DNA of 64,000 nt, taken from positions 99,972,278-100,036,277 of the forward strand of contig CP136069.1 in NCBI GenBank assembly GCA_032622095.1, read 5' to 3'. This DNA is from Siphonodentalium dalli. Lineage: Eukaryota > Mollusca > Scaphopoda > Gadilida > Siphonodentaliidae. Shown here in pieces: positions 5,438 through 64,000 of this stretch. Under the pieces are notes generated by a model. That model was given only the letters and a program-made list of their open reading frames with translations. It did no database searches and was not told where the DNA came from. Numbering within the stretch: position 1 is the stretch's first letter; every line of letters begins with the position of its first letter. The translations under genes were made by a program, and so were the position numbers.

Positions 5438-6297
5438 TATGTTTACCCATACCATAGTATGGTAAACATAGTGTCGTCCGGATTGACCACTCGTCGTTCG
5501 TCCGTCTGTCTGTACGTCTGTCCATAGACACTTTACGAGTAATGCGATGACTCAAACATTTTCTATACGTTCCGAACCAAATTTTGTATATGGGTTTCTC
5601 AGCCGAAAATGCGAACTCATTCTAGGTAATGGTCAGGTAAAGTAAGTTCGTCCGTCTGTCCATAGACACTTAACGAGTAATGCGATAACTCAAACATTTT
5701 CTATCCGTTCCGAACCAAATTTTGTAAATGGGTTTCTCATCGGAAAATACAGATAGAGTTCGAATTTGGGTTTGATCCGAGTTTTTGTTACAGAGTTATT
5801 ATGGCCCTTTTACGACTTAGAATTAACGCATTTTGCCATAACTCAAACATTTTTTATCTGATTGGAACCAAATTTGGTATGTGAGTTTCAACATACAGAT
5901 CGACTTCGAATATGGGTTTGATCCGATTTATTTTAAAGGAGTTATGCAGTCTTAACGTACACTGCCATATAATTGCCTCAGATCTGTGGAGAAACACAGT
6001 GCAAGGCCATTAAAATTATTCCTTCCACAACACTGGGCATATACGCTATACTGTATGACACTTTTTCGAGAAAAAAATTTGAAGAAATTGTTTGTTATTT
6101 TATTTAAATTTATTTTTAACTTTTATAATAATAATAATAAACAAAAATGTCATTGAGTCTTTCATTTGTTTTCATTTAGATATTGATGATTATGATACAA
6201 GTTGATTAAAAGGTTCCCAATGTGTCCCTTTAAATATTTAGTAATGAACCCATAAATTAATAGTGTTAAGGTGCCATTACATGACTGAGCCGTTTTT
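5438..6297 (+). mobile_element. Family A element A1 (5' part)
   Basis: The 5'-terminal hairpin is at 5438-5470: arms TATGTTTA/TAAACATA and CCATAC/GTATGG, one bulged C, loop CATA. A TCCG/TCTG tract follows, then core units with GCGATAACTCAAACATTTT, ACCAAATTTTGTATATGGG and GAGTTATGGCCCTTTT. The element passes into the (ATA)n and GATATTGATGATTATGAT region typical of family A. Family B element B1 starts at 6298. The 3' end of A1 was not located. Confidence 0.7.
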
Positions 6298-9200
6298 AGC
6301 TCACCTGAGACGAAGTCTCCGGTGGAGCTATAGTCATCACTCCTCATCTGTTGTCCGTCCGTCTGTCCGTCCGTCAACTTTTTTAAAAACATCTTCTCCT
6401 CTGAAACCATTATACCGAATTGGTTCATATTTGGTGTGGATGTTCCCTAGGTGACTCTCATTCAGATTTGTTCAAATGAGGTCACTGGGTCAAATAGTTG
6501 CGAAACAAGGGCCATAACTCTATTCCTCCATAGTAATTCTTACAACAACTTCTTGTCCATAACCATTGTTCCGATTTAGCTAATATTTGGTATGGAGGGT
6601 CATTGGGTGACTGGTGTTCAGATTTGTTCAAATGAGGTCACCCGGTCAATTAGTTGAGAAACCAGGGCCATAACTCATAGTAATTCTTGCAATGACTTCT
6701 TCTAAAAAAAATATTGGGCCGATTTAGCTTATATTTTGTACTGAGGCACCTTGGGTGACTGGGAATCAGATTTGTTCAAATTGGGTCACTGTGTCAAATA
6801 GTTGCGAAACCAGGGCCATAACTATATTCCTCCTTGGTAATTCTTATAACGACTTCTTGTCTAGAACCATTATGCCGATTTAGTTTATATTTGGTATGGG
6901 GGGTCATTGAATGACTGGGGTTCAGATTTGTTCACATGGGGTCACTGGGTCAAATAGGGGTGGAGCCAGGGCCATAATTCCAAAAAAAATAATAAAAAAT
7001 TCAGGAACTCCTGGATCGATTTAACATAAAAAAAAAAAATTATCACCTCCCCCCCCCCCCCCCACATAACCCAGAACCCCACCCTGCCCCCAACCAACAG
7101 CATTCCACCCTATCTCATCTCCTAACTCACAGGATCTCTCCCACCAGCAGATTCAGTCAATTGTATTAGCTACAGACAGAGAGGGAGGTAATATAAATAC
7201 ACACAGTCATCAATTGAGATGTTTATCAGGCTGACATGTGTGAACTAATGCTTAGCTAGCACTCATGCCAATGTGTGTTATTAAAATAAAATCAAAACAA
7301 ATTATTGTTCTCTAACCTGAATTTAGTGTGTCTGGCATTTGCAGAATGAGGTTCCCAGAGGGTGAATTTAGTTATGCTACCCTGCACAGCAGTCTAGCAT
7401 CACCATTCTGCTTAGGCCTCATCTTCTGGGAAGTATATATGCACTTAAATTGACATTTTTACTTTTTCCCTTCTGTTTAGTTTCTATATCCCCTAATTTG
7501 TGAATATAAAATGCATAATTGAGGTGCCCAATGGGTGCACATCACCAACTTTAACTGGTGAACTTAAATCTAATGCTATGTCTCCCATAGCAGTTGAGGC
7601 CTACACAGAATGAGGTTCCCAGAGGGTGAATTTGGTGATGCTAGCCCGCATTGTAGGATTGTGTCATTAAATTCACCCTTTGGGGATCTCATTCTGCAAA
7701 TGTCAGGCTTGGCTTTTCGAATATTATGTTCTTAACCACCAGTATCCAGTTGAACTCATTATACCTGATTTTGCAAAGAAAACTTGGGGGGCATATTGCA
7801 TTGAATTTGTCAGTCTCTATGTCAGACTGTTTTCCCATCCATCCATCTGTCATTATGTCTCTATCCGTCCATCAATTGTTTTCTTCTCCAGATACATATT
7901 AAAGACCAAATGGGTTTATATATTTAGGTGTGGATGTAAATCCTTGTTTTGATCACAGCTGTAGGAGTAACACAATACATTGGTATTGCTGGGCAAAATG
8001 TTTGTGCCATCATTAATTATATCCATGTCAATAGGTCTCCCAGACATTCTGGTAGCTGATAGTGGCTTTATGAATGGAATTTTATCCCATGTTTATCTCC
8101 GATACAAATTATCTGTTTGACAGAAAGTTTATTTTTACTATTAATATTAACCATTTCATGACCAGAGTTGTGCTGGTGAGAGCAATGAAGACCCTGTGCT
8201 TGTGCATTCTCTTATATATGCTCCCATGGGAAGCCTCCCATATAAAAGAGAATGCACTGGCTTTCAAGGTCATGGTAATTTTGTTGAGCCAATAGGCATT
8301 CAAATAAATCATGTATGTCATATTCTTGCAGGGATGTCGCCACTGTGTGGGGGGGGGGGGGGGGGGGGGGCGGTGATTTACAGATTTGTTCAATGAAATG
8401 TAATTTTTGAGCTCACATCTTCTCTAGACTGAATGGGTTCATATTTGGTGTGGATGTTCCCTAGGTGACTTACATTCAGATTTGTTTAAATGAGGTCACT
8501 CTATCAAATGGTTATGGAGGCAGGGCCATAACTCTTGCCCTCCACAGTAATTCTTAAAAACTACTTCTTCTGCGGTACCATCAGGTTGAATGGGTTCATA
8601 TTTGGTATGAACAGTCCTTGGTGACCCGGAGTTCAGATTTTTTTTCAAATGGGGTCTTTGGTTTTAAATGGGGTCACCTGGTCAACTAGGGGTCAAGCAA
8701 AGGACAGTTTTCCTCTTAATATGCTTCCTTCACACAGACCATCAGGTCTATTTTACTGATATTTAGTATGAAGGGTTCTTTGGTGTCTGGGATTCAAATT
8801 TATTCAGATGGGGTCACCAGATTAAATAGAGTGGGACCAGGGACATAACTGTTTGTCTCTATAGTAATACTTAAAAATGTCTTCTCAAGAGAGGTTGGAC
8901 TATTTAGCTTACATATAGTATGGAGGATCCTTTTGTGACTGAGATTCAGATTTGTTAACATGAAGTCAACCTGTTAAGAAATGACGGGGCTATGGGGACT
9001 TCACTTAAAACATCTACCTTGGAACTACCTGACAGATTAATCTGACATATATATGGTGTTTTCGGGTTCATGGATAATTGGGCTTCAAACATGTCTAAAT
9101 AAAAAGGTGCTTGTGAGATTGGTAATTTCGAACAATTGAGAAAGTTTGAGACGTCAGTTGTGAAATTCCAACCTAAGACTTGGGAATCTGGAGCCCGGTC

Positions 9201-9431
9201 AGGAGGGGATATGTTGAGCTGGAGGGGGGTGATCTGTAGTGTTCCATTGGTAATTTAAAGGTAGATATTCACTGATCGACATGAAGCCTCTCTAGCCACA
9301 TATCCTGTTTCTAAAGATCCACTTCTTTTAAAGTGATTATGAAAAGTTCTGACTGTTATGGTCTCAAGAGTCCCAGTCTTATCAGTATTTGCAGTCTGGT
9401 GAGCGACCCCACAGTCTTTGACTGTCTTGTT
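6298..9431 (+). mobile_element. Family B element B1, complete (3.1 kb)
   Basis: The 5' hairpin is at 6298-6329 (AGCTCACCTGAGAC, loop GAA, GTCTCCGGTGGAGCT). It is followed by TAGTCATCACTCCTC, a TCCG/TCTG tract and core units carrying GGTTCATATTTGGTGTGGAT, CAGATTTGTTCAAATG and AGGGCCATAACTC. Inside are a poly-C tract (about 7050), a palindromic module (7325-7710) and a poly-G tract (about 8350). The 3' end has subterminal GTCTGGTGAGC (inverse of GCTCACC..GAC), hairpin ACAGTC-TTT-GACTGT (9411-9425) and terminal CTTGTT. Confidence 0.75.
7325..7710. repeat. Palindromic module inside B1
   Basis: Starts TGTCTGGCATTTGCAGAATG and ends with its near inverse (CTCATTCTGCAAATGTCAGG). A second inner palindrome pairs CAGAATGAGGT..CCAGAGGGTGAATTT with AAATTCACCCTTTGGGGATC. 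Copies sit at the same relative place in B2, B3 and B4. Confidence 0.65.
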
Positions 9432-9569
9432 GCTTACAGCACGGATCCCCCATTAATGTCAAGTAGCAGTTAAATAACAGAATTCCTCCTGATATCTGAT
9501 AAAAAACAGGTGTAGTTCACAATATTGGAGTGTACTATATAGACTGCCACTGGTTAATAGAATGTTATT

Positions 9570-9966
9570 ATCCCCCGCCAAATTGAAAATTTGCAGGGGA
9601 TATAGGAATGGGTTCCATCCGTCTGTCCGTCCGTCCCGAATTTGTAAGTCATAACTTGAACGAGTGTCAATGGATTTTTAAAGATTTGTGGTATATGAGT
9701 TCACCTGGCCATTACCTAGAATGAGTTCGCAAGCCAGATCCGGCCGGATATTTTTACCGGAGTTATTGGACTTTGTTTATTATTTTTGTTGAATTTACCA
9801 AATAGCAAATAGACGACTTCACAGGGCTCATTTCCACAAATGTCAACGGATTTCAAAGATTTTTGGTATATGAGTTCACCAGTATCTAGAACGAGTTCGC
9901 AAACCAGGTCCGGCCGGATATTTTCAGCAGAGTTATTGGACTTTGTTTATTGGTATATTTATTCCC
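9570..9966 (+). mobile_element. Family F element, 5' part
   Basis: The 5' hairpin (ATCCCC..CCAAATT, loop GAA, AATTTGC..GGGGAT; 9570-9602) is followed by a TCTG/TCCG tract and two core units about 178 bp apart (GGTATATGAGTTCACC; CCGGCCGGATATTTT). It has the same layout as families A-E but its own sequence. It is interrupted at about 9967 by a hAT-like end, and no 3' end was found. Confidence 0.6.
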
Positions 9967-10644: not shown

Positions 10645-13600
10645 TATGTTTACCCATACCATAGTATGGTAAACATAGTGTCGTTGCCCGGATTGACCAC
10701 TCGTCGTTCGTCCGTCCGTCTGTCTGTCTGTCCTGTCCGTAGACACTTTATTAGTAATGCGATAACTGAAACATTTTCTATCCGATCGAAACCAAATTTT
10801 GTATATGGGTTTCTCAGCCGAAAATGCGAACTCATTCTAGGTAATGGTCAGGTAAAGTAAGTTCGTCTGTCTGTCCATAGACACTTTACAAGTAATGCGA
10901 TAACTCAAACATTTTCTATCCGTCACGGCTGTAATGACTAATGTGAGTGTCCGCTAAAATAAACAATAAGGACTAACTAACAAAGGAGTTGCAAAAGCTT
11001 TTAGTTTTATTGCTAAAGCTTTTATTAATTAATGGCCTCCCTTAATTAATGCCAACCCACTGGTATAATCCGATTAAAGCAATAAACTTCGACAATTTTA
11101 TTTACGGAAGCGGTCTATTCAAAAAGTGCGACCCGGTCTCATCCAAAAGTGCGACGCGTTACCGAAACGAACTTCCGAAGCGCCTGATACATAGTTACTC
11201 TGATAATGTCGTAATTGTTTTATATCTGAAAATCGGGACGGCGGTCTTTTAAGTTAATTAAAACATTTATTTGTGACACTCACGATGGTCAGTAACAACA
11301 CAGATGCGAACATCTCATCGTGTTTTCAGCGTGTCAAAACATTCGTGATTAACATTCATTACTGCAAGGGAACAAAGGCGATTGAATAACAACACAAAAC
11401 AATAGGTCATATTTTATTTTTTATTTTAAACACTTGGGTCTTTGTCTCTGCATCGTTGTTTCTTTTTGGGATGGCCGCCACAATTCATCTATATACGGAC
11501 ATGTCTACACACAAAAAAAACTAAAAAAAAAAAAAAAAAAAAAAATCCCCCTAAAATTGAAGGCGACTTCGATTTCGCCTTAGAGCGAGGATAGGGCGAA
11601 GTCAGCGACAGTAAGGCGACAATCTCGCCCGAGTCGCCTTGTGAGCTGAGGCCTGTTCCGAACCAAATTTTGTAAATGGGTTTCTCATCGGAAAATACAG
11701 ATAGAGTTCGAATTTGGGTTTGATCCGAGTTTTAGTTACAGAGTTATGGCCCTTTTACAACTTAGAATTAACGCATTTTGCCATAACTCAAACATTTTTT
11801 ATCTGATTGGAACCAAATTTGGTATGTGAGTTTCACCGCCCAAAATACAGATCGAGTTCCAATATGGGTTTGATCCAATGAATTTTAAAGGAGTTATGAC
11901 CCTTTTTCCAGAAATAAAAAATTTTTTGTTTTAGATTTAGCTCCTTGTTTTACTCATTGTGTTCATATTTTATATGCATGTATATGATGACACATGGCTC
12001 ACCTGTATAGTGTTTGGTATCGGTTGGTTGATCGGTTTAGAAAATAATTAACCCTGCTTACAAATGCTATCTGATGCATCAAAGTCAAACAATTTTCTTC
12101 TGATCTGCCTCATATTTCTTATCTAGGTCTTTCTTAGCACGTTCTTCATCTGTATGGATTTTGGTATTGTTTAGTTAACCCTTTCCACTCTTGTTTTTAA
12201 ATAGAATTCATACATATCAGGTGCGAATATGGGTTTGATCCGGTATATTTTAACAGAGTTATGGGCCCTTTATAATTCATACCTCTTTTCCATACACTAT
12301 TAAATTTGAATAGAACAAGACACAACACATGCCTGTGTTATTGGAATGAGATAATTTATTGCTTTGGACACCTGAGTACCACTGGTGGCTGCAGACTTAT
12401 AAACATCTGTCAAACTTTGATTGATGTCAGACTCTTTATTCCAGTTCTGTTCTCTGTGTTGAAACCATGCAATTCATGGCATTATTGTTTACAGAGACAC
12501 TGTTGTCATATCTTAGAAAATAATTAATACAGGCATTTTTTAGTTCCATCATATGATGTCATTGATTAACCCTCTGCACACATCATATGGTCTTAGAACT
12601 GATGTTTTTTATTTGATCATTCTCCTATTCTATGTCCATGTTGATGGTGATCCACTTTTAACTTGCATGGATTTGGGATTAAAATTAACCCATTTGATAG
12701 ACACATATTATCCGATAGACATATATTTAACTTTGAGCCAGGTTCAGTCAGTGTTTCAAGAAATGACCAATTGAATATTCATCATTAGAGGAAATGTATT
12801 TTTTTGAAATTCCCTCAATTGCATTTGGGCTGCAGGATAAATTAACAGTGCTGGGATTCTTGAGACTGACTTATTGTATGGGTTTCTAAATCCAATGACA
12901 TGCTTTTTGTTGACTTCTCTGTGTTTATCAGTTCATTAGTTTGGTTGGGTAAGATTAATCCCTTACTATCCGATTTGATAACTCAAATATTTCCATTGAT
13001 TATGTTTATAGTTCTGGCACAGTTTATGATAACACACCTCTAACCTGCATAGTGAGGGTCATTTGGTTTATTTGCTTAAATATATGAACATCCTTCACCA
13101 ATCCTGTTGACACAATGTGATAGCTAAATATTTTTTGGATGATCACTCTATAAATAATCACATCTGTGATAATCATGACATATTCTTCACCTGTATATAT
13201 TTTTGTATTGATCGAATGGTTTTAAAAATATTAACCTTAACATTAATTATATTTAAACTGTTCACAAACAGAAGAATGATCAACTTAGAAGAAAATTAAC
13301 ATTTATATGCAATCATTAGCAATCATATTTTATATCCAGGTCTATACATCCCTCACTTGTATAGTTGATCAGGTGTTGATTTTTTTGTGGTGAAATATTA
13401 ATAAGTTGCTATGAATTTTTAATATGCAGCGGACACAAAATATAATAAACAAAAAAATAGAAATGATAATAAAAGAAAAACACACAATATGTTATGTCTC
13501 ATATTCCAATGTAATAAATAGATAAATTGAGCTGCTATGATGTTCATCTACTTAATTTCTTAACTATTTTATATTTAACAGCTATGGTGCTTCTCTCCCA

Positions 13601-13850
13601 CTATGGATTGAGCTTAATTAGCTTTATCACTCTCTGAGACATATCTGTGTTGGAGTCACTAATAGGTTGAAATCAAAGCCAATTCTGTGTTAACATTGTG
13701 TTAATGTGAGCAAGGTGCCCACCCAATAAGTGTGAACTGTTTAAAGTTTTGCACTCATGAAAAGGATGGGGTAAGGATTTATGAAAATAGCTCATCGCTG
13801 TCGCCAAGGTATGGGTTAAACATCTACCGATCGTGATCGGCCTCCTGTTA
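10645..13850 (+). mobile_element. Family A element A2, near complete, carrying a 0.73-kb insertion
   Basis: The 5' hairpin is at 10645-10677. Core repeats match A1 (shared variant ATTCTAGGTAATGGTCAGGT) and are broken at 10923 and resumed at about 11655. A long AT-rich 3' region (about 12000-13800) has paralogues at 43000-44480. The 3' end has subterminal GGTATGGGTTAAACAT (13809-13824, inverse of ATGTTTA-CCCATACC), then hairpin CCGATC-GT-GATCGG and terminal CCTCCTGTT. Flanking hAT-like sequence is continuous on either side. Confidence 0.72.
10924..11656. mobile_element. Unclassified 0.73-kb insertion inside A2
   Basis: It interrupts CTATCCG|TTCCGAACC, which is uninterrupted in A1 at about 5700. 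The first half (10930-11295) has imperfect inverted ends sharing GTGAGTGTC. The second half contains an A run and a GC-rich tail with repeated GGCGA/TCGCC motifs (11560-11640). No coding sequence is seen. It could be two nested short elements. Confidence 0.5.
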
Positions 13851-14340: not shown

Positions 14341-15011
14341 TTAATATTAAAGTCGGAATCGGACATAACTATACGTCTCTATAGTAATTCTTAAAATGTC
14401 TTCTCAAGAGAGTTTGGACTATTTAGCTTTAATACATATAGTATGGAGGAATCGGGAGGATCCTTTAGTGACTGAGATACAGATTTGTTAAAATGAGGTC
14501 AACCTGTCAAGAAATGGCAGTCTATGGGGACTTAACACTTTTGTGTCCAATAAAATCATCGAAGTACCAAATTCATTAAAACATCTACCTTGGAACCACC
14601 TGACTGATTGGTCTGACATACATGTATTGTGTTTTGGGTCCATGGATAATTGGGCTTCAAACATGTTTAAATGGTTTTAGAAAAAGGCGCTTGTGAGATT
14701 GGAAATTTCCAACAATTGAGAAAGTTTGAGGTGTCGGTTGTGAAATCCAACCTAAGACTTGGGAGTCTGGAGCCCGGTCGGGAGGGGACTTGTTGAGCTG
14801 GAGGAGGGGGGTGATCAGTAGTGTACAGTTGGCAATTTCAAGGTGGATTTTCACCAAGCTACATACTTGAAGTCTCTCTAGCCACATATCCTGTTTAAAT
14901 CTACTTCTTTTAAAGTGATTATGAAAAGTGCTGACTGTTTTGGTCTCCCGAGTCCCAGTCTTATCAGTCTTTGCTGTCTGGTGAGCGACCCCACAGTCAT
15001 TGACTCTTGTT
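14341..15011 (+). mobile_element. Family B 3' fragment
   Basis: Matches the 3' regions of B1 and B3 (GACTTGGGAGTCTGGAGCCC, CTCTCTAGCCACATATC). It ends with GTCTGGTGAGCGACC, a degenerate hairpin and CTCTTGTT. The 5' part of this copy is missing. Confidence 0.65.
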
Positions 15012-15327
15012 ATTGCAATGCCTGATGTTATGACAAAAATACTTTTTTTGAAAAAACAAAACTTTTTTATTTTTTATACGCCCTTTTTGAAAAAAGGTCG
15101 TATTATGTTATCAGTCTGTCCGTCCGTCTGTCTGTCTGTCCGTCCGTCCGTCCGTCCGTCCGTCTGTCTGTCTGTCCGTCCGTCCGTTAACATTTTTGGT
15201 TTCCGATCGATAACTCCAGTTTGGATTATTTGATCTGAACCAAAGTTGGTATGTGTATTTCCCAGCTAAAGATACAGGCCAAGTTCGAATATAGGTTCCG
15301 TCCAAATATTTTTACATGAGTTACGGC

Positions 15328-16487
15328 TAGTGATGAGCCGATAATCGGGAACGACAATCGGAATCGGCCGATTGTGGCCCATCGGATGACAATCGGTACT
15401 CGGGGTTTGAACATCGGGATTTCCGATTGTCTAAATAATAAATAGGTGCTTGTTTTTCTTCAATGAACTGGTTTAAATATGACGATGTTTTGTTGCATAA
15501 ATGACCTGCAAACATGGGGAAAGTGATCCCAAACACAAACTTGATATAAAGACATGTCCTCTTCAATACCCCGGCCGTACCTGGGTCTATGTTTGAACAA
15601 TATATAGTGGGGATCACCGGGAAGCACGTGACACTTTGTGTTAGAGTGACGCTGCAAGCATGACGCCATGATTGCGCATAATCATTAATTATTGGCATAC
15701 CGGAACAGTCGTTTCAGTCGATTGATTTCATTAGCATTATGATGTACACATCATGGGACTCATGTACGCCCATAGGTAACTTTATTGTTCGTCAACATGT
15801 AGACATATTGATTTATGTCAGACTATCAAAAATAAAGATGTATGCATACGGAGTACAACAGAGCTATCTATATAGTGCATACAGCGTAACAGGTATAAAC
15901 TATACTATAGAAACCGAAAGTGCATGTCACGTGGCTTTAAATAGTCAAAGACCATGTCATTCCATGATCCAGTCAGCCTCGTGTGACGTCGCGTATAGGT
16001 CACCACCAATGATTATTATGATGACCATGCTGAAATCGAATCGTGTCTGTGAAATTGACATGAACACGGTGTTACTTGCAACTAGTTCAGTCGGCTCATT
16101 TCCTTTGATGTGATGTCTTTGAATTGGGATCAAAGAAAAATGCCGTTTGATGAATTGTTATCAAAAACGAACCGTGGACATGTCGTCATGTCATCAAACT
16201 TTCAAACAATTTGTTATGGAATAGCCTAAAATAGATGGGTAAGTTGCCTGTATTCGATCACAAGTCCGCCCATGCCCACCTATATATACTTACCCAAACA
16301 TATACTTATGTATACTGTGTACTGGCATATTATTTCGTTTGTTGCTTGCTTCTATAATTCTAAGTATTATATAACACATATAACATATATTCTGCTATAA
16401 TTATTGAAATAATCTGAATCGGCCGATTGTGATCTCAAATAATCAGCAATCGGCGCAAGGCTCTATTTGACAATCGGCTCATCACTA
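15328..16487. mobile_element. hAT-like non-autonomous transposon, copy 1
   Basis: Terminal inverted repeats TAGTGATGAGCCGAT/ATCGGCTCATCACTA are exact over 15 bp. The flanking 8-bp duplication is GTTACGGC (15320-15327) and GATACGGC (16488-16495), one mismatch. The host D2 core is continuous across it. The 1.16-kb interior is rich in CGATTGTC/AATCGG near the ends and has no recognisable transposase. Confidence 0.72.
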
Positions 16488-17168
16488 GATACGGCCCTTT
16501 TTCGACTTAGAATTTGACTGTCATTTAACATTTTTGGTTTCCGACCGATAACTCCAGTTTGGATTATTTGATCTGAACCAAAGTTGGTATGTGTATTTCC
16601 CAGCTAAAGATACAGGCCAAGTTCCAATATGGGTTCCGTCCAATTATTTTTACATGAGTTACGGCCCTTTTTCGACTTAGAATTTGACTGTTGTTAACAT
16701 TTTTGGTTTCCAACCGATAACTCCAGTTTGGATTATTTGATCTGAACCAAAGTTGGTATGTGTATTTCCCAGCTAAAGATACAGGCCAAGTTCGAATATG
16801 GGTTCCGTCCAATTATTTTTACATGAGTTACGGCCCTTTTTCGAATTTGATCGTCGGTTAACATTTTTGGTTTCCGACCGATAACTCCAGTTTGGATTAT
16901 TTGATCTGAACCAAAGTTGGTATGTGTATTTCCCAGCTAAAGATACAGGCCAAGTTCGAATATTGTTTCCGTCCAGTTATTTTTACATGAGTTACGTTTT
17001 TTTTTCAACTTCGAATTTGACCAATTTCATAACATTTTGGTTTCCGACCGATAACTCCAGTTTTGATTATTTGAGCTGAACCAAAGCTGGTATGTGTATT
17101 TCCCAGCTAAAGATACAGGCCAAGTTCGAATATAGGTTCCGTCCAAATATTTTTACATGAGTTACGGC

Positions 17169-18329
17169 TAGTGATGAGCCGATAATCGGGAACGACAATC
17201 GGAATCGGCCGATTGTGGCCCATCGGATGACAATCGGTACTCGGGGTTTGAACATCGGGATTTCCGATTGTCTAAATAATAAATAGGTGCTTGTTTTTCT
17301 TCAATGAACTGGTTTAAATATGACGATGTTTTGTTGCATAAATGACCTGTAAACATGGGGAAAGTGATCCCAAACACAAACTTGATATAAAGACATGTCC
17401 TCTTCAATACCCCGGCCGTACCTGGGTCTATGTTTGAACAATATATAGTGGGGATCACCGGGAAGCACGTGACACTTTGTGTTAGAGTGACGCTGCAAGC
17501 ATGACGCCATGATTGCGCATAATAATTAATTATTGGCATACCGGAACAGTCGTTTCAGTCGATTGATTTCATTAGCATTATGATGTACACATCATGGGAC
17601 TCATGTACGCCCATAGGTAACTTTATTGCGTCAACATGTAGACATATTGATTTATGTCAGACTATCAAAAATAAAGATGTATGCATACGGAGTACAACAG
17701 AGCTATCTATATAGTGCATACAGCGTAACAGGTATAAACTATACTATAGAAACCGAAAGTGCATGTCACGTGGCTTTAAATAGTCAAAGACCATGTCATT
17801 CCATGATCCAGTCAGCCTCGTGTGACGTCGCGTATAGGTCACCACCAATGATTATTATGATGACCATGCTGAAATCGAATCGTGTCTGTGAAATTGACAT
17901 GAACACGGTGTTACTTGCAACTAGTTCAGTCGGCTCATTTCCTTTGATGTGATGTCTTTGAATTGGGATCAAAGAAAAATGCCGTTTGATGAATTGTTAT
18001 CAAAAACGAACCGTGGACATGTCGTCATGTCATCAAACTTTCAAACAATTTGTTATGGAATAGCCTAAAATAGATGGGTAAGTTGCCTGTATTCGATCAC
18101 AAGTCCGCCCATGCCCACCTATATATACTTACCCAAACATATACTTATGTATACTGTGTACTGGCATATTATTTCGTTTGTTGCTTGCTTCTATAATTCT
18201 AAGTATTATATAACATATATTCTGCTATAATTATTGAAATAATCGGAATCGGCACCTGAATCGGCCGATTGTGATCTCAAATAATCAGCAATCGGCGCAA
18301 GGCTCTATTTGACAATCGGCTCATCACTA
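17169..18329. mobile_element. hAT-like non-autonomous transposon, copy 2 (tandem duplicate)
   Basis: Nearly identical to copy 1 and offset by 1841 bp, with the same flanking duplication (GTTACGGC at 17161-17168). Because flanks and target duplication are both copied, this is duplication of a whole segment, not a second insertion. Small indels near 17630 and 18245 distinguish the copies. Confidence 0.72.
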
Positions 18330-19173
18330 GATACGGCCCTTTTTCGACTTAGAATTTGACTGTCATTTAACATTTTTGGTTTCCGACCGATAACTCCAGT
18401 TTGGATTATTTGATCTGAACCAAAGTTGGTATGTGTATTTCCCAGCTAAAGATACAGGCCAAGTTCGAATATGGGTTCCGTCCAATTATTTTTACATGAG
18501 TTACGGCCCTTTTTCGACTTAGAATTTGACTGTTGTTAACATTTTTGGTTTCCAACCGATAACTCCAGTTTGGATTATTTGATCTGAACCAAAGTTGGTA
18601 TGTGTATTTCCCAGCTAAAGATACAGACCAAGTTCGAATATGGGTTCCGTCCAATTATTTTTACATGAGTTACGGCCCTTTTTCGAATTTGATCGTCGGT
18701 TAACATTTTTGGTTTCCGACCGATAACTCCAGTTTGGATTATTTGATCTGAACCAAAGTTGGTATGTGTATTTCCCAGCTAAAGATACAGGCCAAGTTCG
18801 AATATTGTTTCCGTCCAGTTATTTTTACATGAGTTACGTTTTTTTTTCAACTTCGAATTTGACCAATTTCATAACATTTTGGTTTCCGACCGATAACTCC
18901 AGTTTTGATTATTTGAGCTGAACCAAAGCTGGTATGTGTATTTCCCAGCTAAAACTACAGACCAAGTTTGAATATAGGTTCTGTCTAATTATTTTTACAT
19001 GAGTTATGGCCATTTTTTCGACTTCGAATTTGACCACATTTTGGCATTGAAATTAGGGGTATATATTATCAGATTTTCTTCAAATGTAAGCTCAAAGTAT
19101 TATCTTATTTTATGATAGTACAATTCGAAATGGTTAAAGGGCGTATTTTGCCACGCCCTAGCGATGCTCTTGT

Positions 19174-22599: not shown

Positions 22600-22606
22600 C
22601 TTTCAG

Positions 22607-22783
22607 ATACAGAGGTCCACCCCCACCACTCCCACAGCAGCAGCGTCCTACTGAGACCGGCTCAACGGATGATAGTGTGAAGAGACCAGCTATTATATCT
22701 GAAAAAGAATTGAAGGACTTTGATACTTTGTTGGAGGAACATGACGAGGGATGGGCTGGTGCTCAAGGAGAAATTGATTATAG
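22607..22783 (+). CDS. PRRC2: PRRC2-like exon 2 of window, conserved GWAGA motif
   Basis: This 177-nt exon has acceptor CTCTTTCAG and donor GTAATT, and enters and leaves in phase 2. It encodes YRGPPPPLPQQQRP, a Ser/Thr/Asp linker, then KRPAIISEKELKDFDTLLEE and HDEGWAGAQGEIDY, and ends in two bases of a Ser codon. The block from RPAII to IDY corresponds to the strongly conserved PRRC2 segment (in human PRRC2A, a GRPSI...DDGWAGA...EEVDY run), which makes it the best evidence for gene identity. The motif is acidic with an invariant-looking Trp. The intron sequence just upstream, to about 22599, belongs to repeat element A3, so the acceptor lies within a few bases of transposon-derived DNA. Codons are intact and nothing suggests a pseudogene. 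Confidence 0.92.
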
Positions 22784-22799
22784 GTAATTTCCCCATAAC

Positions 22800-25017: not shown

Positions 25018-25019
25018 TA

Positions 25020-49700: not shown

Positions 49701-50812
49701 TATAAATAATTGTCTAAAAATATTTTTCTGAAATTGTCGGCCATTTTGGATTTCCGACTGCGGATCTTACATTTTTTTTACAAACTTATTTCATTATTTT
49801 AATTTTCAAACGTCTTAAAAAGGATTAAAAATCAGATATATACTGCAGAATTTAATTAGAAACAATTAAAACAATAATTTTATGAAACTTGAAAAACTTT
49901 TTTATTATTGTTATACGGTTGTGATCAAAATAATTACGGTTACAATTATGGCCGATAATATCGGCCCTGGCAATTTACCGACCGGATATTTGGGCCGATA
50001 ATATCGGCCCCTGGCAATCAAAGAGTTAAACTGTTCGACCGAAATCGCCACAAATGTTAACAGGTCTATTTTGCTGATATGTAGTATGAAGGGTTCTTTG
50101 GTGTCTGGTATTGAAATTTATTCAGATGTGGTCACCAGGTTAAATAGGGTGGGACCAGGGACATAACTGTATGTCTCTATAGTCATTCTTAAATTGTCTT
50201 CTCAAGAGAGGTTGGACTATTTAGCTTACATATAGTATGGATGATCCTTTAGTGACTGATATTCAGATTTGTTAACATCAGGTCAACCTGTTAAGAAATG
50301 ACGGGGGCTATGGGGAGTTAACAATTTTGTGTTTAAAAAATCATTGAAATACCAAATTCATTAAAACATCTTCCTTGGAACTACCTAACTGATTAATCTG
50401 ACATACATGTATGGTGTTTTGGGTCCATGGATAAATGGGCTTCAAACATGTCTAAATGGTTTTATAAAAAGGTGCTTGTGAGATTGGAAATTTCCAAAAA
50501 TTGAGAAAGTTTGAGATGTCTGTTGTGAAATTCCAACCCAAGACTTGGGAGTCTGGAGCCCGGTCAGGAGGGGACTTGTTGAGCTGGAGGACGGGGGGTG
50601 ATCAGTAGTGAACAGTGGGCAATTTCATGGTGGATATTCACCTTGAAATTACCCACTGTACACTACTGAAGCCTCTCTAGCCACATATCGTGTTTAGGTC
50701 TACTTTTTTCAAAGTGCTTATGAAAAGTTCTGACTATTGTGGTCTCCAGAGTCCCAGTCTCATCAGTCTTTGCAGTCTGGTGAGCGACCCCACAGTCTTT
50801 GACTGTCTTGTT
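46778..50812 (+). mobile_element. Family B element B3, complete (4.0 kb), nested in A7
   Basis: 5' hairpin at 46778-46809, TCCG tract, B core units, poly-C (about 47527-47540), palindromic module (47755-48160), poly-G (about 48250) and a B 3' region. The end is GTCTGGTGAGCGACC, hairpin ACAGTC-TTT-GACTGT (50792-50806) and CTTGTT. The A7 core GAGTTATGGCCCTTTTT|CAACTTAGAATTC is restored on removal. The stretch 48840-50040 inside is unassigned AT-rich sequence with a GGCCGATAATATCGGCC palindrome near 49950-50010. Confidence 0.75.
47755..48160. repeat. Palindromic module inside B3
   Basis: TGTCTGACATTTGCAGAATG..AGGTCCCC at the left is answered by GTGACCTCATTCTGCAAAAG at the right. Inner arms are AGAGGGTGAATTTGG and AAATTCACCCTTTAG. 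Confidence 0.6.
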
Positions 50813-52293
50813 CAACTTAGAATTCATGCAAGCTGCCATAATTAAAAAAAAATTCATCCGACCATAACCAAATTTGGTATGCGAGTTGCTCAGTCCAAAA
50901 TACATATCGAGTTCGAATATGGGTTTGATCCGATATTTTTTAATGGAGTTATGGCCCTTTGACATAGAATTCATGAATGTTTCGATAAATCTACAATTTT
51001 TCAACTGATAGGAAACAAATTTTGTATGTGAGTTTCTCAACTCAAAATACAGGTCGAGTTCGAATATGGGTTTGATCCGATATATTTTAATGGAGTTATG
51101 GTGTTTTTATTATTTTATTTATCGCTAAAATATATCAAAGATACCCAGTTTGCACTGTCCAAATAGAATCTAATAAATCCGGTTTGAAGTTGTCTTCTCA
51201 CACAGTTTTAGTATCCAGTTACAATGCCATGAAGTGTCTCTCTCTCTCTTGCATTGAGATAATTAACTACTAGGAGATGTGTATGCTGAGATAGCATAGA
51301 TGGAATGTTTCTACTATATATTTTATATGCATGGTTATTTAAATTCCATCTTAAAGGCATAATCTGGTTTCATTGTTTAATAGCATTACTATTGGAGATT
51401 AATAATGTGATTGTGTTTAGTAGATTTGTTGGACATTAATTTCAATTGATTACAAATGTGAATTGAAATATTAAAGGGCACACCAGGTTTGATATATTTT
51501 TCTTGTACTCTGCAAGTACACTTTAGGCATAATGCGATAACTCTAACATTTTCTATTTGATCGGAACCAAATTTTGTATATAAGTTTCTCAGCCCACAAT
51601 ACAGTTTGGGTTCGATCCAATTTATTTTAAAGGAGTTATGACCCTTTTTCGAAAACAAATTTGAAAAAATATTATAATAATAATAATAAAAAATGTCAGT
51701 GACTCTTTCATTGGTTTTCATTTAGATATTGATGATTATGATACACGTTGATAAAAAGGTTCCCAATCTTTTTTTTTAATAAGTTAAAAAAATTTGAAAA
51801 ACTAACACAATTATAACTCTGCCAAGGGTACCCCGAATCACCACACCAAATTTGTTTAAATCTGTCCAAAATCTTGTGTTATGTACTGGTAAATCTGTTT
51901 GGAGAAACATTAAATCCAATTCACCAATTCTATCCCATGCCTTTGGACTACTTAGCTATTGATAAGGCTATATTATTTTCTGATGTCTCTTATGCCAGTG
52001 TGCAAATAATGTGATAAAGAAGGCTATGGTACGGTATCCAATTTAAAATAAAGATTCAACAATAAACATCACATGATATTAACAGTAGACATGTACATCT
52101 GTGCTGCAGAGTTATATCTTCAGATGGTCTGAGGTCATTATAATTATTATTGGTTTAATAGAGAGGTCAGTTTTCAACATACACAATTCCTGTGATTGTT
52201 GAGAGCTCTGCTATATAATTGATATTAATGGGTCAGCAGTGTGGTGGCTTATCTGCATACTATATTATTGGTATAATTTGACACATTATTATT
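50813..52293 (+). mobile_element. Family A sequence (A7 core and 3' region)
   Basis: Core units run to about 51110, then an unassigned stretch to 51520. A further truncated A core (AGGCATAATGCGATAACTCT) and the A 3' region (51660-52290) follow, which is paralogous to A3 22000-22590 and A8 53340-53960. It may comprise two A copies. Confidence 0.55.
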
Positions 52294-54320
52294 AGCTCAA
52301 CTTTACTTTGTAAAGTTTGAGCTATTGCCATGGCTTTGTCGTCCGTCCTCCATGTGTGTGCGTGGTCCATCAACAATTTCCTTTAGCACAGGCTACAGGT
52401 CGTACCTTTGGTTGGATCATTATGAAATTTGTCATGGCTGTTGACATTGACATGTAGATGGGAATGAGTCATTTTGGGGTCATTTGGAAAAAAAGACATG
52501 GCCGCCAGTGGCCATCTTGGATTTCAAAATTCAATCCATTAGCACGGGCTACAGGTCGTACTGTTCGTCTGATCATCATGAAATTTGTCATGGATGTTAA
52601 TATTGACATGTAGATGGGAACGAGTAATTTTGTGGTCATTCGGCCCAAAAACATGACCGCCAGCAGCCATCTTGAATTTTACTCTTTGTATGACTAAATC
52701 CTTTAGCACGGGCTACAGGTCGTGCCTTTAGTCTGATCATCATAAAATTTGTCATGGATGTTAACAATGACATGTAGATGGGAACGAGTCATTTTGGGGT
52801 CATTCAGCCAAAAAACATGGCCGCCAGCAGCCATCTTGGATTTTACTCTTTGTATGACTAAATCCTTTAGCACGGGCTACAGGTCGTACGTTTAGTCTGA
52901 TCATCATGAAATTTGTCATGGATGTTAACAATAACATGTAGATGGGAACGAGTCATTTTGGGGTCATTCGACCAAAAAACATGGCCGCCAGCAGCCATCT
53001 TGGATTTTACTCTGTGTGTGACTAAATTCTTTACTGCTCATTTTTACACTCCTTTTTATGTTTACCCATACCATAGTATGGTAAACATAGTGTCGTTGCC
53101 CGGATTGACTACTCGTCGTTGGTCCGTCTGTCTGTCCGTAGACACTTTACGAGTAATTCGATAACTCAAACATTTTTTATCTGATTGGAACCAAATTTGG
53201 TATGTGAGTTTCACAGCCCAAAATACAGATCGAGTTCGAATATGGGTTTGATCCGATTAATTTTAAAGGAGTTATGACCCTTTTTCGAAAGAAAAAAATG
53301 GAGAAAAAAATCGATTTAAATTTTTTTTACTTTTAACTTTTATAATAATAATAATAAAAAAAATTGACATTGTCATTTGTTTTCATTTAGATATTGATGA
53401 TTATGATAAAAGTTGATAAAAAGATTTCCAATGTGTCCCTTTAATTTTTTTAAATAATTAAAAAGTTTTTAAGTTAAAAAAAATTGTAAAACTAACACCA
53501 TTATAACTCTGCCAAGGGTACCCCGAATCACCACACCAAATTTGATTAAATCGGTCCAAAATCTTGTGATATGTACTGGTAAATCTGTTTGGAGCAACAT
53601 TAAATCCAATTCACCAATTATCTTTGGACTACTTAGCTATTGATAAGGCTATATTATTTTCTGATGTCTCTTATGCCAATGTGCAAATAATCTGATAAAG
53701 AAGGCTATGGTATCTAATTTAAAATAAAGATTCAACAATAAACATCACATGATATTAACAGTAGACATCTCTGCTGCAGAGTTATATCTTCAGATGGTCT
53801 GATATCATTATAATTGTTATTGGTTTAATAGAGAGGTCAGTGTTCAACATAAACAATTCCTGTGATATTTTGACAGCTCTGCTATATAATTGATATTAAT
53901 GGGTCAGTGGTGAGGTTGCTTATCTGTATACTAGGACACATTATTATTGTAAACTTAAATTGAACTCACTTAACCTAAGTATTCCATGTCCAGGTCACAC
54001 CTTTCGCATTTAACCCAAGGCTGTGGTGGTTTAGCATTACCGATCCTGTAAGAGTGTATTCTCTTATATAAATGCCAGTGACCCATAAATTCCAATAATT
54101 TGTGTGATGTACATTTGTCTATAATAGTACATAACAGTATACTCTATAATTCAACACCAAAACTCTCATTTATCCGATCATAGTAAATTTTTATCGCCAA
54201 GGGATGGGTTAACATCTGCCGATTGTGATCGGCCTCTCGTTAATCTCTCTATTCATTGCTCATCACAAAAAAATTACCTTCTTTACAAAGTTGAGCTACA
54301 GTGTCATTGACACTTTCATT
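52294..54320 (+). mobile_element. Family C element C2, complete, containing A8
   Basis: 5' hairpin at 52294-52323, leader and four core units (CATGGCCGCC near 52497 and on). A8 is inserted at 53057. The C 3' end is AAGTTGAGCT (54288-54297), hairpin AGTGTC-ATT-GACACT (54300-54314) and TTTCATT. Confidence 0.72.
53057..54240 (+). mobile_element. Family A element A8, complete (1.2 kb), nested in C2
   Basis: 5' hairpin at 53057-53089, short TCTG tract, one core unit and the 3' region almost collinear with A3. The end is GGGATGGGTTAACAT, CCGATTGTGATCGG, CTCTCGT. It shows what normally follows the point where A3 stops at exon 2 (TAAGTATTCCATGTCC). Confidence 0.75.
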
Positions 54321-55039
54321 TCTAGAAAGTGTAAATTTGGTGTCACTTTCCCAATGAAGATCGGTTGCCTACTGAGAAGGCACATGGAAAATATTTGTGT
54401 GATGGATTAAATGATTTTTTATTTTTTATAATTTGTCATAAATATATATATAATTCAGAATATATAATTCGTGATCGGCCTCTCGTTGTTTTCTGAAATG
54501 CGCCCAGACATCTGATATACGCATTTCTTCAGTATCCATGATACTGTCTACACGTAGTGAGTTGGAGAGTAAATGTCAAATGACCAGGCCTTACTCCATT
54601 GAAAATGATTGCATTGATCTTTGCCGACGACTCAGTGGCGTCAGTGCACGTGTTTTACCGGACATCGGAACATCAAAGATGACGGCATGCATCTTTGATG
54701 TTTAGCCGCCAAAGCCAGACTATACTAGTATGTAACTTGCCATTCATGGAAGACTTTTTATCTCGCACCAGATTTTGACTTTTAATACACGTAATTTCGA
54801 CTATACTCCTCAGTGATAAAGATTGTAGCACACGTGTAGTACACGTGTTTAAAACTACTGTTATCAGGCTCGTGCTGATTAAGAACCTAATATGTTCGTT
54901 TTTGTCGTTGGCATCGCGTGTGTGCAATACGTAGCGGTTAACCGGTTGATAGTAGTTCAACCGGTTGTCAACCGGATATCCGTTTCAGCACTAGTGGCTA
55001 TGCCCGAGAATCAAAAACTTTTTTTTTTTGGCCTAAATT

Positions 55040-59642: not shown

Positions 59643-60632
59643 AGCTCAACTTTACTTTGTAAAGTTTGAGCTATTGCCATGGCTTGGTATCCGTTATCCG
59701 TGTGTGTGTGCGCATGTATGCGTGTGTGGGTGTGTGATTCGTCAACAATTTCCTTTAGCACGGGCTGCAGGACTTACCTTGTGTCGGATCATTATGAAAT
59801 TTGTCATGGCTGTTGACATTGACATGCAGATGGGAACGAGTCATTTTGTGGTCATTCAGCAAAAAAACATGGCCGCCAGCAGCCATCTTGGATTTTAAAA
59901 TTCAATCCATTAGCACGGACTGGCCATACTATTTGTCTGATCATCATGAAATTTGTCATGGCTGTTAATATTGACATGTAGATGGGAACGAGTCATTTTG
60001 GGGTCATTTGGTAAAAAAACATGGCAGTCGGCAGTAATCTTGGAATGTACACTTTGCATGACTAAATCCTTTCGCATGGACTACAGGTCATACCTTCGGA
60101 TCATCATGAAATTTGTCACAGATGTTGACAATGAGATGTAGGTGGCAACGAGTCATTTTGGGGTCATTCGGCAAAAAACATGGCTGCCAGTGGCCATCTT
60201 TGATATCAAAATTCAATCCATTAGCATGGGCTACAGGCCATACTCTTTGTCTGATCATCATGAAATTTGTTGTGGATGTTAATATTGACATGTAGATTGG
60301 AACGAGTCATTTTGGGGTCAATCGGAAAAAAAACATGGCTGCCAGCAGCCATCTTTGATTTTAAAATTCATTCAATTAGCAGACTACAGGCCGGTGTGTG
60401 GGTCTGATCATCATAAAATTTGTCGTTGAAGTTTACATTGACATGTAAATGGGAACGAGTCATTTTGGGGTGTCATTCGGCAAAAAAACATGGCTGCCAG
60501 TGGCCATCTTGGATTTTACTCATTGCATAACTAACCTTTCAACTTTCCACATTCCTAATCACTCCATTGACTGTAACACATGAAATTATTCCCTTTCCAA
60601 GTTGAGCTGCAGTGTCATTGACACTTTCATTT
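59643..60632 (+). mobile_element. Family C element C3, complete (1.0 kb)
   Basis: 5' hairpin at 59643-59672, a GTGTGTG-rich leader, and core units (GACATTGACATG, CATGGCNGCCAG, GCCATCTT). The 3' end has AAGTTGAGCT (60599-60608), hairpin AGTGTC-ATT-GACACT (60611-60625) and TTTCATT. It fills most of the intron between exons 5 and 6. Confidence 0.8.
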
Positions 60633-60910: not shown

Positions 60911-62318
60911 AGCTCACCTGAGACGAAGTCTCCGATGGAGCTATAGTCATCACTCCTCGTCTGTCCGTCCATCGGAACGTCCGTCCGTCCGTCAACAATT
61001 CTTTAAACATCTTCTCCTCTGAAATCATCAGACCAAATGGGTTCATGCTTGTGTGGATGTTCCCTAGGTGACTCATTCAGATTTGTTCAAATGAGGTCAC
61101 TGGGTCAAATAGTTGCGAAGCCAGGGCCATAACTCTTTCCCTCCATAGTATTAAACGACTTCTTGTCTAGAACCATTGGGCCGATTTAGCTTATATTTGG
61201 TATGGAGGGTTCTTGAATGACTGGGGTTCAGATTTATTCAAATGGGGTCACTGGGTCAAATAGTGGTGGACCCAGGGAATAACTCCAAAAAAAATGATAA
61301 AAAACTTTAAAATTCAGTTCGAACTCCTTGATCAATTTAACATACAAATTTTTTTTATTAGTTTAAAAAAAGAAACATTTTTAAAAATTAGAAAAACTAA
61401 CACCGTTGTAACATCCGCAGAGTTATGAAAATCTTTAATGAAATCATGGAAACTCCCTTTCCATCACCCCCCCCCCCCATGACCCAGACCACTACCCTGC
61501 CCCAAACCAACAGCATCCCACCCCCATCTCATCTCCTAACTCTTTGGATCTCTCCCACCAGCAGATTCAGTCAATTGTATTAGCTACAGACAGAGAGAGA
61601 GGGAGTTAATATAAATACACAGTTATGTTATCAGATGTTATCAGGCTGACATGTGTGAACAAATGCAATAGCTAGCACTCCTGCCAGTGTGTCAATAAAA
61701 TCAAAACAAATTATTGTTCTCAAACCTGAATTTAGTGTGTCTGACATTTGCAGAATGAGGTCCCCAGAGGGTGAATTTAGTTATGCTACCCTGCACAGCA
61801 GGCTAGCATCACCAAATACTCTAGCCAGGGTCCTCATTCTGCTTAGGCCTCATCTTCTGGGAAGTATATAGGGTCTTCAATTGACATTTTTACTTACATT
61901 TTCCCTTCTGTTTAGTTTCTATATCCCCTTATCTGTAGAAGATAAAATGCATAATTGAGGTGCCCAATGGGTGCACATCACCAACTTTAACTGGAGAACT
62001 TCAATCTGATGATATGTCTCCCATAGCAGTTGAGGCTTAAACAGAATGAGGTCCCCAGAGGGTGAATTTGGTGATGCTAGCCCGCATTGCAGGATTGTGT
62101 CATTAAATTCACCCTTTGGGGACCTCATTCTGCAAATGTCAGACACTATGTTCAGGCCTGGCTGTTCGAATATTATTTTCTTAACCACCAGTAACCAGTT
62201 GAACTCATTATACCCTGATTTTGCAAAGAAAACTTGGGGGGGGGGGGGGGGAGGGGTATATTGAATTGAATTTGTCTGTCTCTATGTCAAACTGTTCTCC
62301 CATCCATCCATCTGTCAT
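60911..62318 (+). mobile_element. Family B element B4, 5' part
   Basis: 5' hairpin at 60911-60942, TCCG tract, B core units, poly-C (about 61470), palindromic module (61735-62150) and poly-G (62236-62252). It is collinear with B1 to ..CCATCTGTCATTA, where family G begins. The B 3' end is not in the window. Confidence 0.7.
61735..62150. repeat. Palindromic module inside B4 (best preserved)
   Basis: Outer arms GTGTGTCTGACATTTGCAGA and its inverse (TCTGCAAATGTCAGACACTA) lie about 400 bp apart. An inner palindrome at 62043-62135 pairs CAGAATGAGGTCCCCAGAGG then GTGAATTT with AAATTCACCCTTTGGGGACC then TCATTCTG. Confidence 0.7.
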
Positions 62319-62898
62319 TATACCCCCTTTTATACTGTTTTGCACCTGTCCGTCCGTCCGTGCATGTCTGCGTCCGTCCGTACGTCCGTCCGATGTCTGT
62401 TCATGTCATAACTTGAACAGTAGTGCTCTAATCTCAATGAAATTAGGTATGGATGTTCACTACTATGAGGACATTAAATAGAGGGTTCCATCGTTTTGTT
62501 CGGATTTTCCATTCTAGATTTATTCATCTTTGTTTATCTGGATATGTTGGCTTTTTGGTCTGTCTGGTGTCTTCATGTCGTAACTCCAACAGTTGTGCTG
62601 GGATCTCAATGACATTTGGTATGGATGTTCACTACTATGAGGACATTCAATAGAGGGTTCCATTGTTCTGTTCCGCTTTTCCATTCTAGAGTTATTCATC
62701 TTTGTTTATCTGAAAATGTTGGCTGTTTTGTCCATCTGATGTCTGTTCAGGTCATAACTTGGAACAGTAATGCTCGGATCTCAATGAAATTTTGTATTGA
62801 TGTTCACCACTATGAGGACATTTAATGGCACATTCAACTGTTTTTTTTTGGTTTTTTGTTCTATAGTTATTCATCTTTGTTTATTATACCCCCTTTTT
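62319..62898 (+). mobile_element. Family G element (5' part), inserted in B4
   Basis: Starts TACCCCCTTTTATACTG, followed by a TCCG tract and three core units about 173 bp apart (TATGGATGTTCACTACTATG at 62448 and 62620, a variant at 62795). A second TATACCCCCTTTTT head at 62885 is cut by C5. The hairpin is weaker than in the other families. Confidence 0.55.
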
Positions 62899-64000
62899 AG
62901 CTCAACTTACTTTTGTAAGTTTGAGCTATTGCCATGGTTTGTCGTCCGTGTGTCAGTGTGTCCGTCAACAATTTCCTTTGGCGCGGGCTACAGGTTGTAC
63001 CTTTGGTCTGATCTTCATGAAATTTGTCATGAATGTTGACATTGACATGTAGATGGGAACGAGTCATTTTGGGGTCATTCGGCCAAAAAACATGGCCGCT
63101 GGCAGCCATCTTGGATTTCAAAATTCAATCCATTGGCGCGGGCTACAGGTCGTACTGTTCATCTGATCATCATGAAATTTGTCATTGATGTTAATAATGA
63201 CATGTAGATGGGAACGAGTGATTTTGGAGTTGTTCGGCCAAAAAACATGGCCGCCAGCAGCCATCTTTGATTTTACTTTTTGCATGACTCAATCCTTTGG
63301 CGCGGGCTACAGGTTGTACCTTTGCTCTAATCTTTATGAAATTTGTCATGAATGTTGACATTGACATGTAGATGGGAACGAATCATTGTGGGGTCATTCG
63401 GCCAAAAAACATGGCCGCTGGTGGTCATCTTAGATTTCAAAATTCAATCCATTGGCGCGGGCTACAGGTCGTACTGTTCGTCTGATCATCATGAAATTTG
63501 TCATGGATGTTAATATTGACATGTAGATGGGAACGAGTCATTTTGGGGTTGTTCGGCCAATAAACATGGCCGCAGGCAGCCATCTTGGATTTTACTCTTT
63601 GCATGACTAATCCTTTGGCGCGGGCTACAGGTCGTAGCTTCGATCGGAACATCATGAAATTTGTCATGGATCTTAACAATGACATGTAGATGGGAACGAG
63701 TGATTTTGGGGTCGTTCGGCCGAAAAACATGGCCCCAGCAGCCATCTTGGATTTTACTCTTTGCATGACTAAATCCTTTGGCCCGGGCTACAGGTCATAC
63801 CTTTGGTCTGATCTTTATGAAATTTGTCATGAATGTTGACATTGACATGTAGATGGGAACGAGTCATTTTGGGGTCATTCGGCCAAAAAACATGGCCGCT
63901 GGCAGCCATCTTGGATTTCAAGATTCAATCCATTGGCGCGGGCTACAGATCGTACTGTTCGCCTGATCATCATGAAATTTGTCATTGATGTTAATAATGA
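62899..64000 (+). mobile_element. Family C element C5, runs off the window
   Basis: 5' hairpin at 62899-62927 (AGCTCAACTTAC, loop TTTT, GTAAGTTTGAGCT), TCCG leader, and core units with GGCGCGGGCTACAGG and CATGGCCGC continuing to the last base. The unit types alternate (TTTCAAAATTCAATCC versus TTTGCATGACTAAATCC) as in C1. Confidence 0.78.

Follow-up and report, generated by a model that had tools for sequence, protein, structure and literature searches.

Non-autonomous Helentrons of different families share one strand, in a small sample the sense strand of the host gene, in the scaphopod Siphonodentalium dalli

The window analysed here is a stretch of 64 kb from the genome of Siphonodentalium dalli (G000:C9:99972278-100036277) that carries repeat families A to G, all of them non-autonomous Helentrons (HINEs). 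In this study, we show that copies of different families lie on one strand over tens of kilobases, in this region over about 240 kb, and that in a small sample of loci this strand coincides with the sense strand of the gene in which they sit. A preliminary description of the stretch had assigned families A to E to one Helentron-like layout. All parts of that layout were found again, namely a 5' hairpin, a GTCC/GTCT tract, core repeats of 140-190 bp, an inverse of the 5' end in subterminal position, a hairpin near the 3' end and a T-rich terminus, and the assignment to Helentron derivatives is supported; the description was incomplete in that the single strand of all copies went unmentioned. 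The HINE layout itself has been published and is of modest interest. Strand sharing across families was not found in print, in a literature coverage outside which most subscription papers fall.

End motifs were scanned on both strands of the window with mismatch tolerance, and were searched in the genome (2.227 Gb, 9 contigs) and in an extended region consisting of the window plus 100 kb on each side (264 kb; coordinates are relative to the window start). In the extended region 53 of 54 5'-end matches and 43 of 44 3'-end matches lie on the plus strand, 96 of 98 together, as do 47 of 48 tracts. Core bases number 39,577, of which 39,361 are on plus only, 209 on minus only and 7 on both. Of the two minus ends, one is a palindromic echo of a D end; the other, at 71039, is a genuine C 3' end and is accompanied by the 209 core bases. 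Among the 48 5' ends that start at the first base, 47 are on plus and one is the palindromic echo. Within the window, tracts of GTCY (three per 30 bases) occur 31 times on plus and never on minus, and comparing the window with itself yields 749 matches in direct and 23 in inverted orientation. The 5' flanks are distinct in 50 of the 54 matches; three copy pairs have common 5' flanks, two of them within long duplicated stretches. An asymmetric supply of T-runs was ruled out as the cause of the orientation, counts outside cores and ends being near symmetric (T5 671/A5 641, T6 265/246, T7 140/136). Other repeats more than 3 kb apart gave 125 direct and 49 inverted matches, with 28 of 74 families present both ways; this control covers the 264 kb only, and residual unmasked HINE parts inflate its direct count. 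Other elements of the region are not strand-uniform, since a non-long-terminal-repeat-type endonuclease frame lies on minus (L029:4100-5659) and a weak hAT-like match on plus (L013:3200-5584).

The same agreement recurs on contig C1. Motif strands are balanced genome-wide (A3 2647/2609, B3 1886/1800, C3 6268/6221). The matches listed comprise the first 100 each of A3, B3 and C3, all on C1, and among them the interval 0-23 Mb holds 34 A, 35 B and 100 C ends. Along these 169 ends the strand switches 48 times, as against 82.3 +- 6.3 after shuffling, and none of 20,000 shuffles was as low. Adjacent pairs from different families agree in 7/8 cases at 0-5 kb, 25/26 at 5-20 kb, 17/21 at 20-50 kb and 9/15 at 50-100 kb. 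A-A pairs closer than 20 kb agree in 13/13 and B-B pairs in 8/9 cases, A-B pairs in 5/8 below 10 kb, 7/7 at 10-20 kb and 9/11 at 20-40 kb. For all pairs at 50-100 kb agreement is still 25/33 (C-C), 23/31 (A-C) and 21/29 (B-C); at 100-200 kb it is not above half for C-C (23/49), A-C (20/40) and B-C (20/39), with A-B at 9/11. Strand domains on C1 alternate over tens to about 130 kb (for example 9.24-9.38 Mb plus, 9.58-9.71 minus, 9.73-9.85 plus, neighbours being separated by about 18 to 206 kb), and the window domain of about 240 kb is a long one.

Concerning the host genes, a BAT2_N exon (E 5.6e-28) lies on plus about 43 kb before the window start, and further plus frames up to 142 kb downstream, together with one inside the window at 3586-3659, by eye resemble parts of this gene; Pfam gave no match for the BAT2/PRRC2-like frames other than the BAT2_N exon. 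The window therefore appears to be intronic sequence of a BAT2/PRRC2-like gene. Of 17 small loci on C1 (L003-L010, L031-L039), 15 are uniform in strand, eight of these with A only. Nine loci hold two or more families, and seven of them are uniform (L006, L008, L010, L032, L033, L036, L037). The selection of L031-L039 required A ends that have another A on the same strand less than 20 kb away; A-A agreement at these loci is thus no independent evidence, in contrast to that of the other families and of the genes. Of 18 places, that is the 17 C1 loci and the window region, 6 contain a recognised exon, whereas none was recognised in L035, L039 and 10 other loci; exon candidates from L005, L007, L033 (a further one), L035 and L036 matched nothing in Pfam. 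The genes recognised are BAT2_N (+), Innexin (+), PDZ (-), Transket_pyr (-), RRM (+) and aminoacylase-1 (+), and the elements share the sense strand of the gene in all six places. The exon of L034, without Pfam match, was identified as aminoacylase-1 in the PDB set (E 4e-9), and an A element at 5021-7013 of this locus is flanked by this aminoacylase-like exon at 2834 and by another, assigned by eye, at 7728.

The first base of an element directly follows two or more Ts, in most A and B copies TTTTT, and the elements finish in TT. TT precedes 24/24 A, 6/6 B, 11/11 C and 5/6 D 5' ends, the sixth D being the palindromic echo, and does not precede the E 5' end as bounded here. Empty-site tests were positive for 10 of 48 pairs, a set that takes in all same-family combinations below 12 kb and hence many wrong pairs; an additional test covered 60 pairs. 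Inside the window, the joined flanks of A 10646-13849, A 40005-44480, A 41723-42893, A 53058-54241 and B 46778-50812 match uninterrupted paralogues. Outside it, the same holds for A -78865..-73670, A -59991..-58763, A -14253..-11593 (98/98 bases), A 126961-129034 and A 162183-163376, the last of which duplicates 53058. Joined flanks merely spanning another element's end and one 73% match were not counted as empty sites. Two A elements head to tail share a single D target, whose uninterrupted D paralogues lie at 45010-45109 (96%), 152858-152958 (96%) and 2073-2192 (94%), and for A 10646 and A 126961 the target sequence is also present uninterrupted in opposite orientation. Insertion behind Ts, in line with the T-T insertion named in the preliminary description, is borne out by these paralogous sites and by the Ts in front of the 5' ends. 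No target-site duplication was seen beyond an ambiguous TT, as a duplicated TT is indistinguishable from a TT borne by the element. Canonical Helitrons lack subterminal inverted repeats (subTIRs), start with TC, end with CTRR and insert between A and T. Such ends were not encountered here: the elements run from ATG, AGC, ATA or TGT to GTT, TTT or ATT, behind Ts.

For the origin of the shared strand we favour a role of transcription, a reading to which we give an even chance: the orientation of HINEs would be set by T-runs exposed on the non-template strand. A single-stranded element would be joined to a T-run on the non-template strand that is displaced when a gene is transcribed, T-runs of the template strand, covered by polymerase or RNA, would seldom be used, and transcription would thereby fix the orientation. 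The partner may be one or more Helitron_like_N proteins of the genome. Single-stranded DNA (ssDNA) exposed by transcription would explain gene sense, mixed intergenic places and the sharing by unrelated families. According to the available text of PMC4778049, Helraiser nuclease activity was observed on ssDNA only, its insertions favour expressed genes, and transcription-driven supercoiling is a possible source of the ssDNA.

Several observations weigh against this reading. One C fragment and one tract lie on minus in the 264 kb. Two of the 17 C1 loci, both without recognised exon, are mixed (L035 with A on plus and B on minus; L039 with A and D on plus and C on minus), and at L035 the plus A element sits between the B ends on minus. 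The gene places number only six (sign test 1/64, one-sided) and were mostly picked for A ends, and in the case of innexin the elements are located 3' of the reading frame. On C1 the agreement of A-B pairs below 10 kb is just the 5/8 given above, and at larger distances agreement falls below half: at 200-400 kb for C-C (39/118), A-C (24/102), B-C (23/77) and A-B (13/38), at 160-320 kb for A-A (13/41) and at 320-1000 kb for A-B (81/204). Distant pairs are not independent, and this below-half agreement at 200-1000 kb is without explanation. Finally, intronic copies of the HINE-like INE-1 of Drosophila are reported in both orientations in the part of PMC5624886 available. The strand effect is therefore not universal and may differ with the lineage or with the enzyme of that lineage.

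The main competing explanation is selection against antisense copies. Here insertion would be random in orientation and antisense intronic copies would be purged, through cryptic splicing, premature polyadenylation or antisense and double-stranded RNA, which would likewise leave sense copies in genes and mixed places between genes. We consider it unlikely, though it deserves to be taken seriously. Signals are alike on both strands in 11 elements, with at most a slight excess in sense (sense/antisense: AATAAA 24/21, ATTAAA 25/18, donor-like 8/9, pyrimidine-AG 5/2), so that there is no evident signal to act on. The copy with joined flanks identical to an uninterrupted paralogue over 98/98 bases, probably young because of this identity, is sense as well. 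Intronic biases of other elements look far weaker than the HINE bias here, which we count against selection as well.

Oriented self-nesting, in which an early copy sets the direction and later ones land in core T-runs or behind a 3' TT, explains part of the strand bias; as the explanation of the whole it is improbable. It draws on 7 of 48 5' ends that lie in recognised core T-runs, on two elements (41328, 93603) directly behind A 3' ends, on two more that by eye stand behind a B-like end (-28244) and a D-like end (-7817), and on the excess of T5 over A5 runs in cores and ends (268/140). However, 41 of the 48 5' flanks match no core, T-runs elsewhere are near symmetric, and nesting predicts neither agreement with gene direction nor agreement between families 5-50 kb apart. 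Slightly less probable still is that replication direction sets the strand through ssDNA of the lagging-strand template, as for the bacterial IS608. The HUH logic would be alike and the option is named in the available text of PMC4778049, but the domain flips on C1, across intervals of about 18 to 206 kb, fit genes better than replicons, and gene sense agrees in 6/6 places.

All five paired end motifs of the preliminary description are present in the window. The scan found 5' ends of A (8), B (4), C (5), D (3 and one partial) and E (1), and 3' ends of A (7 and one partial), B (4), C (3), D (1, and one by eye) and E (1); a related hairpin gives three partial C3 matches besides. All are on plus, the sole minus match being the palindromic echo of D5 at 15076. 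For the 3' ends, hairpin and T-rich end stood, and the exact termini had to be corrected to ..CTCGTT (A), ..CTTGTT (B), ..TTCAT or ..TTCATTT (C), ..CTCTTGTT (D) and ..TTTTATT (E). The 3' hairpin folds at -5.0 to -8.0 kcal/mol for A, B, C and E and is weak for D (-2.9, -4.4 kcal/mol). The 5' hairpin, an inverse adjoining the 5' subTIR, has an arm of 8-13 bases in 9/9 copies, a figure without shuffle control. The subterminal match of 5' and 3' ends (at most one mismatch, 9 copies, 300 shuffles per copy) spans 10-16 bases in 9/9 copies, with shuffle means of 6.4-6.9; it exceeds the best shuffle in three (A2, C2, E), equals it in four (A, B, B2, D2) and is one base shorter in two (C, D). The pairing is thus not decided by single copies; its recurrence over copies and five families decides it. 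Families F (9567) and G (62317), of which 5' ends only had been described, indeed have 5' ends, tracts and cores. In agreement with the lack of coding capacity expected of HINEs, the longest stop-to-stop frame in the window has 179 codons. Searches of the window for tRNA genes (ARAGORN) found none, and Rfam gave no match at gathering score.

Core periods by Tandem Repeats Finder are 140-150 (A), 148-156 (B), 155-164 (C), 169-170 (D), 190 (E) and 172 bp (G). Consensus units compared over 60 shuffles per pair gave z 24-38 for A-D, 7.3-7.6 for D-E, 3.2-6.5 for A-E, 5.2-13.9 for A-G, 4.0-4.4 for D-G, 2.2-5.2 for C-G and up to 2.9 for B-G, and no clear forward similarity of A-B or A-C. One B unit matched one A and two D units as reverse complement (z 5.0-5.7), on which we do not build. 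The families are not all unrelated: their ends differ, and the cores of A and D are homologous. Given these scores (A-D, D-E, A-G), several families have core ancestry in common despite unlike ends, and the links between A, D, E and G point to shared descent with ends exchanged or diverged. That unrelated families under one machinery keep re-evolving one layout, as had been proposed from the unlike ends and to which the B and C cores, without clear forward similarity to A, would conform, is very improbable in view of the linked A, D, E and G cores and of the related as well as unrelated groups described for the oyster set (PMC7492417, in the text available).

The recognised features are collected in Table 1. 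Of the two overlapping pairings A 21514..28071 and B 23596..28523, one may be wrong.

Table 1. Features of the window (positions from the window start)
Feature	Position	Strand	Basis or remark
Probable exon, proline/glycine/tyrosine-rich, AG|..|GTGGGT	3586..3659	+	by eye; assigned to BAT2/PRRC2-like gene
A 5' end (hairpin), then tract and A cores	5439..5476	+	flank common to copy at -557 (segmental duplication)
B element, 5' to 3' end	6298..9431	+	ends paired by nesting, not empty site
F 5' end, tract, core; 3' end not found	9567..9960	+	related stretches at 133728, 68976
A element	10646..13849	+	target repeat uninterrupted, opposite orientation, at 46024-46095; 86% over 72 bases
B 3' end, 5' end not recognised	14976..15013	+	motif scan
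D element	15076..19174	+	internal 98% duplication 15188-17168 / 17030-19010
A 5' end and A 3' end	21514..28071	+	paired by nesting; B 5' end inside
B 5' end and B 3' end	23596..28523	+	paired by order; overlaps preceding A pair
C element, about 13 core repeats of 164 bp	28703..31408	+	motif scan
A 3' end	33501..33542	+	motif scan
E element, complete, 552 bp	34471..35022	+	motif scan, subterminal test
C 5' end, diverged (80%)	38657..38695	+	motif scan
D 5' end and cores, broken by A elements	39524..40004	+	motif scan
Head-to-tail pair of A elements, junction 41327/41328	40005..44480	+	target is T-run of D element
A element nested in core of second A	41723..42893	+	uninterrupted paralogues 91-93%
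D element, complete, behind D core T-run	44566..45377	+	3' end by eye
A 5' end to partial A 3' end; contains B, C, another A	46546..54487	+	paired by nesting
B element in A core T-run (GGCCCTTTTT|CAACTT)	46778..50812	+	uninterrupted A cores 89-91%, 99-100 bases
C element containing A 53058-54241	52294..54321	+	near-copy at 161504-163605
A element nested in C	53058..54241	+	motif scan, flanks
C element, 990 bp	59643..60632	+	motif scan, subterminal test
B 5' end	60911..60956	+	motif scan
G 5' end, tract, 172-bp cores	62317..62898	+	core similarity ties G to A
C 5' end and cores behind G T-run	62899..64000	+	runs on beyond window

A direct duplication of 3.9 kb (99.25% identical; -3946..-100 and 2032..5896) includes an A 5' end with its flank, and the D element carries a recent tandem duplication of about 1.8-2.0 kb at 15188-19010. 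The tract of one A element (40063-40260) passes from GTCT over TGTCC to TGTCTT-like units within 200 bases and is a microsatellite evolving inside a HINE. Relics of a C-like 3' hairpin behind A cores at 6148, 21982 and 31952 (90-95% over 20 bases) may represent an end captured from another family. In or beside B elements lie four imperfect palindromes (7316-7706, 24575-25025, 47753-48173, 61721-62160), whose arms measure about 75-135 bases and which make up 21 of the 23 inverted matches of the window. A kinase motif was rejected as gene-strand marker on C1, as its 60 places, 21 of them in one array, were too few; this tandem array (G000:C7:8897842-8899615), mostly with 84- then 89-base spacing, is a kinase-like motif repeated as satellite or exon. 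Three end patterns searched in viral_contigs occurred at 0, 0 and 2 places; on inspection by eye, both places are unrelated coding DNA matched by chance.

By their types, the repeats of the window look bivalve-like. For Crassostrea gigas, the available text of PMC7492417 describes 11 Cg_HINEs in one genome with a 5' subTIR and adjacent inverse, a microsatellite that mostly has 4-base units (in several elements GTCY), satellite-like cores of fixed orientation and mostly 140-180 bp, a 3' subTIR with palindrome, and TT insertion without duplication. The likeness is one of layout. Unlike here, where neighbours of different families agree in strand, both orientations are reported for Cg_HINEs, and that text holds no tie to genes or neighbours. 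The bivalve elements Pearl (cores about 160 bp), DTC84 and MgE are of comparable architecture by their description in the same source. HINE-Mo and DINE-1 (INE-1) share subTIRs (palindromic in HINE-Mo), a 3' stem-loop, T-rich or TT targets and, in some, tandem repeats (PMC4067079, in part); INE-1 differs in that its intronic copies on the Drosophila fourth chromosome occur in both orientations (PMC5624886, in part). Helraiser and canonical Helitrons share rolling-circle logic, 3' hairpin, ssDNA cleavage and the preference for expressed genes, and differ in their 5'-TC and CTAG-3' ends (PMC4778049, in part); how insertions are oriented with respect to transcription is not a topic of that text.

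As candidate partners, the genome contains at least 151 Helitron_like_N matches (150 of 457 candidates scored), the best-scoring in frames of up to 1,697 codons. Among the matches listed, 11 with about 91-111 bits lie in frames of 1,835-2,864 codons, and nine listed matches lie in open frames of 2,239-2,864 codons, for example at C1:169483708, C1:214418025 and C8:4875782. These lengths correspond to what we take to be the size of Helentrons with endonuclease.

For the ssDNA used by Helitron-type HUH transposases in eukaryotes, replication and transcription are the candidate sources named in the available text of PMC4778049. The gene-linked strand bias, if true, would help to choose between them from sequence alone, and it would be testable at once in any annotated HINE-rich genome. 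Introns would then grow by layered, co-directed elements. With somewhat less confidence than in the role of transcription, and short of an even chance, we propose that T-runs on the non-template strand of germline-transcribed genes are the real targets and that HINE orientation is a fossil record, legible in the absence of RNA data, of the strand from which each region was transcribed in germline cells; it would thus provide a strand-specific marker of germline transcription.

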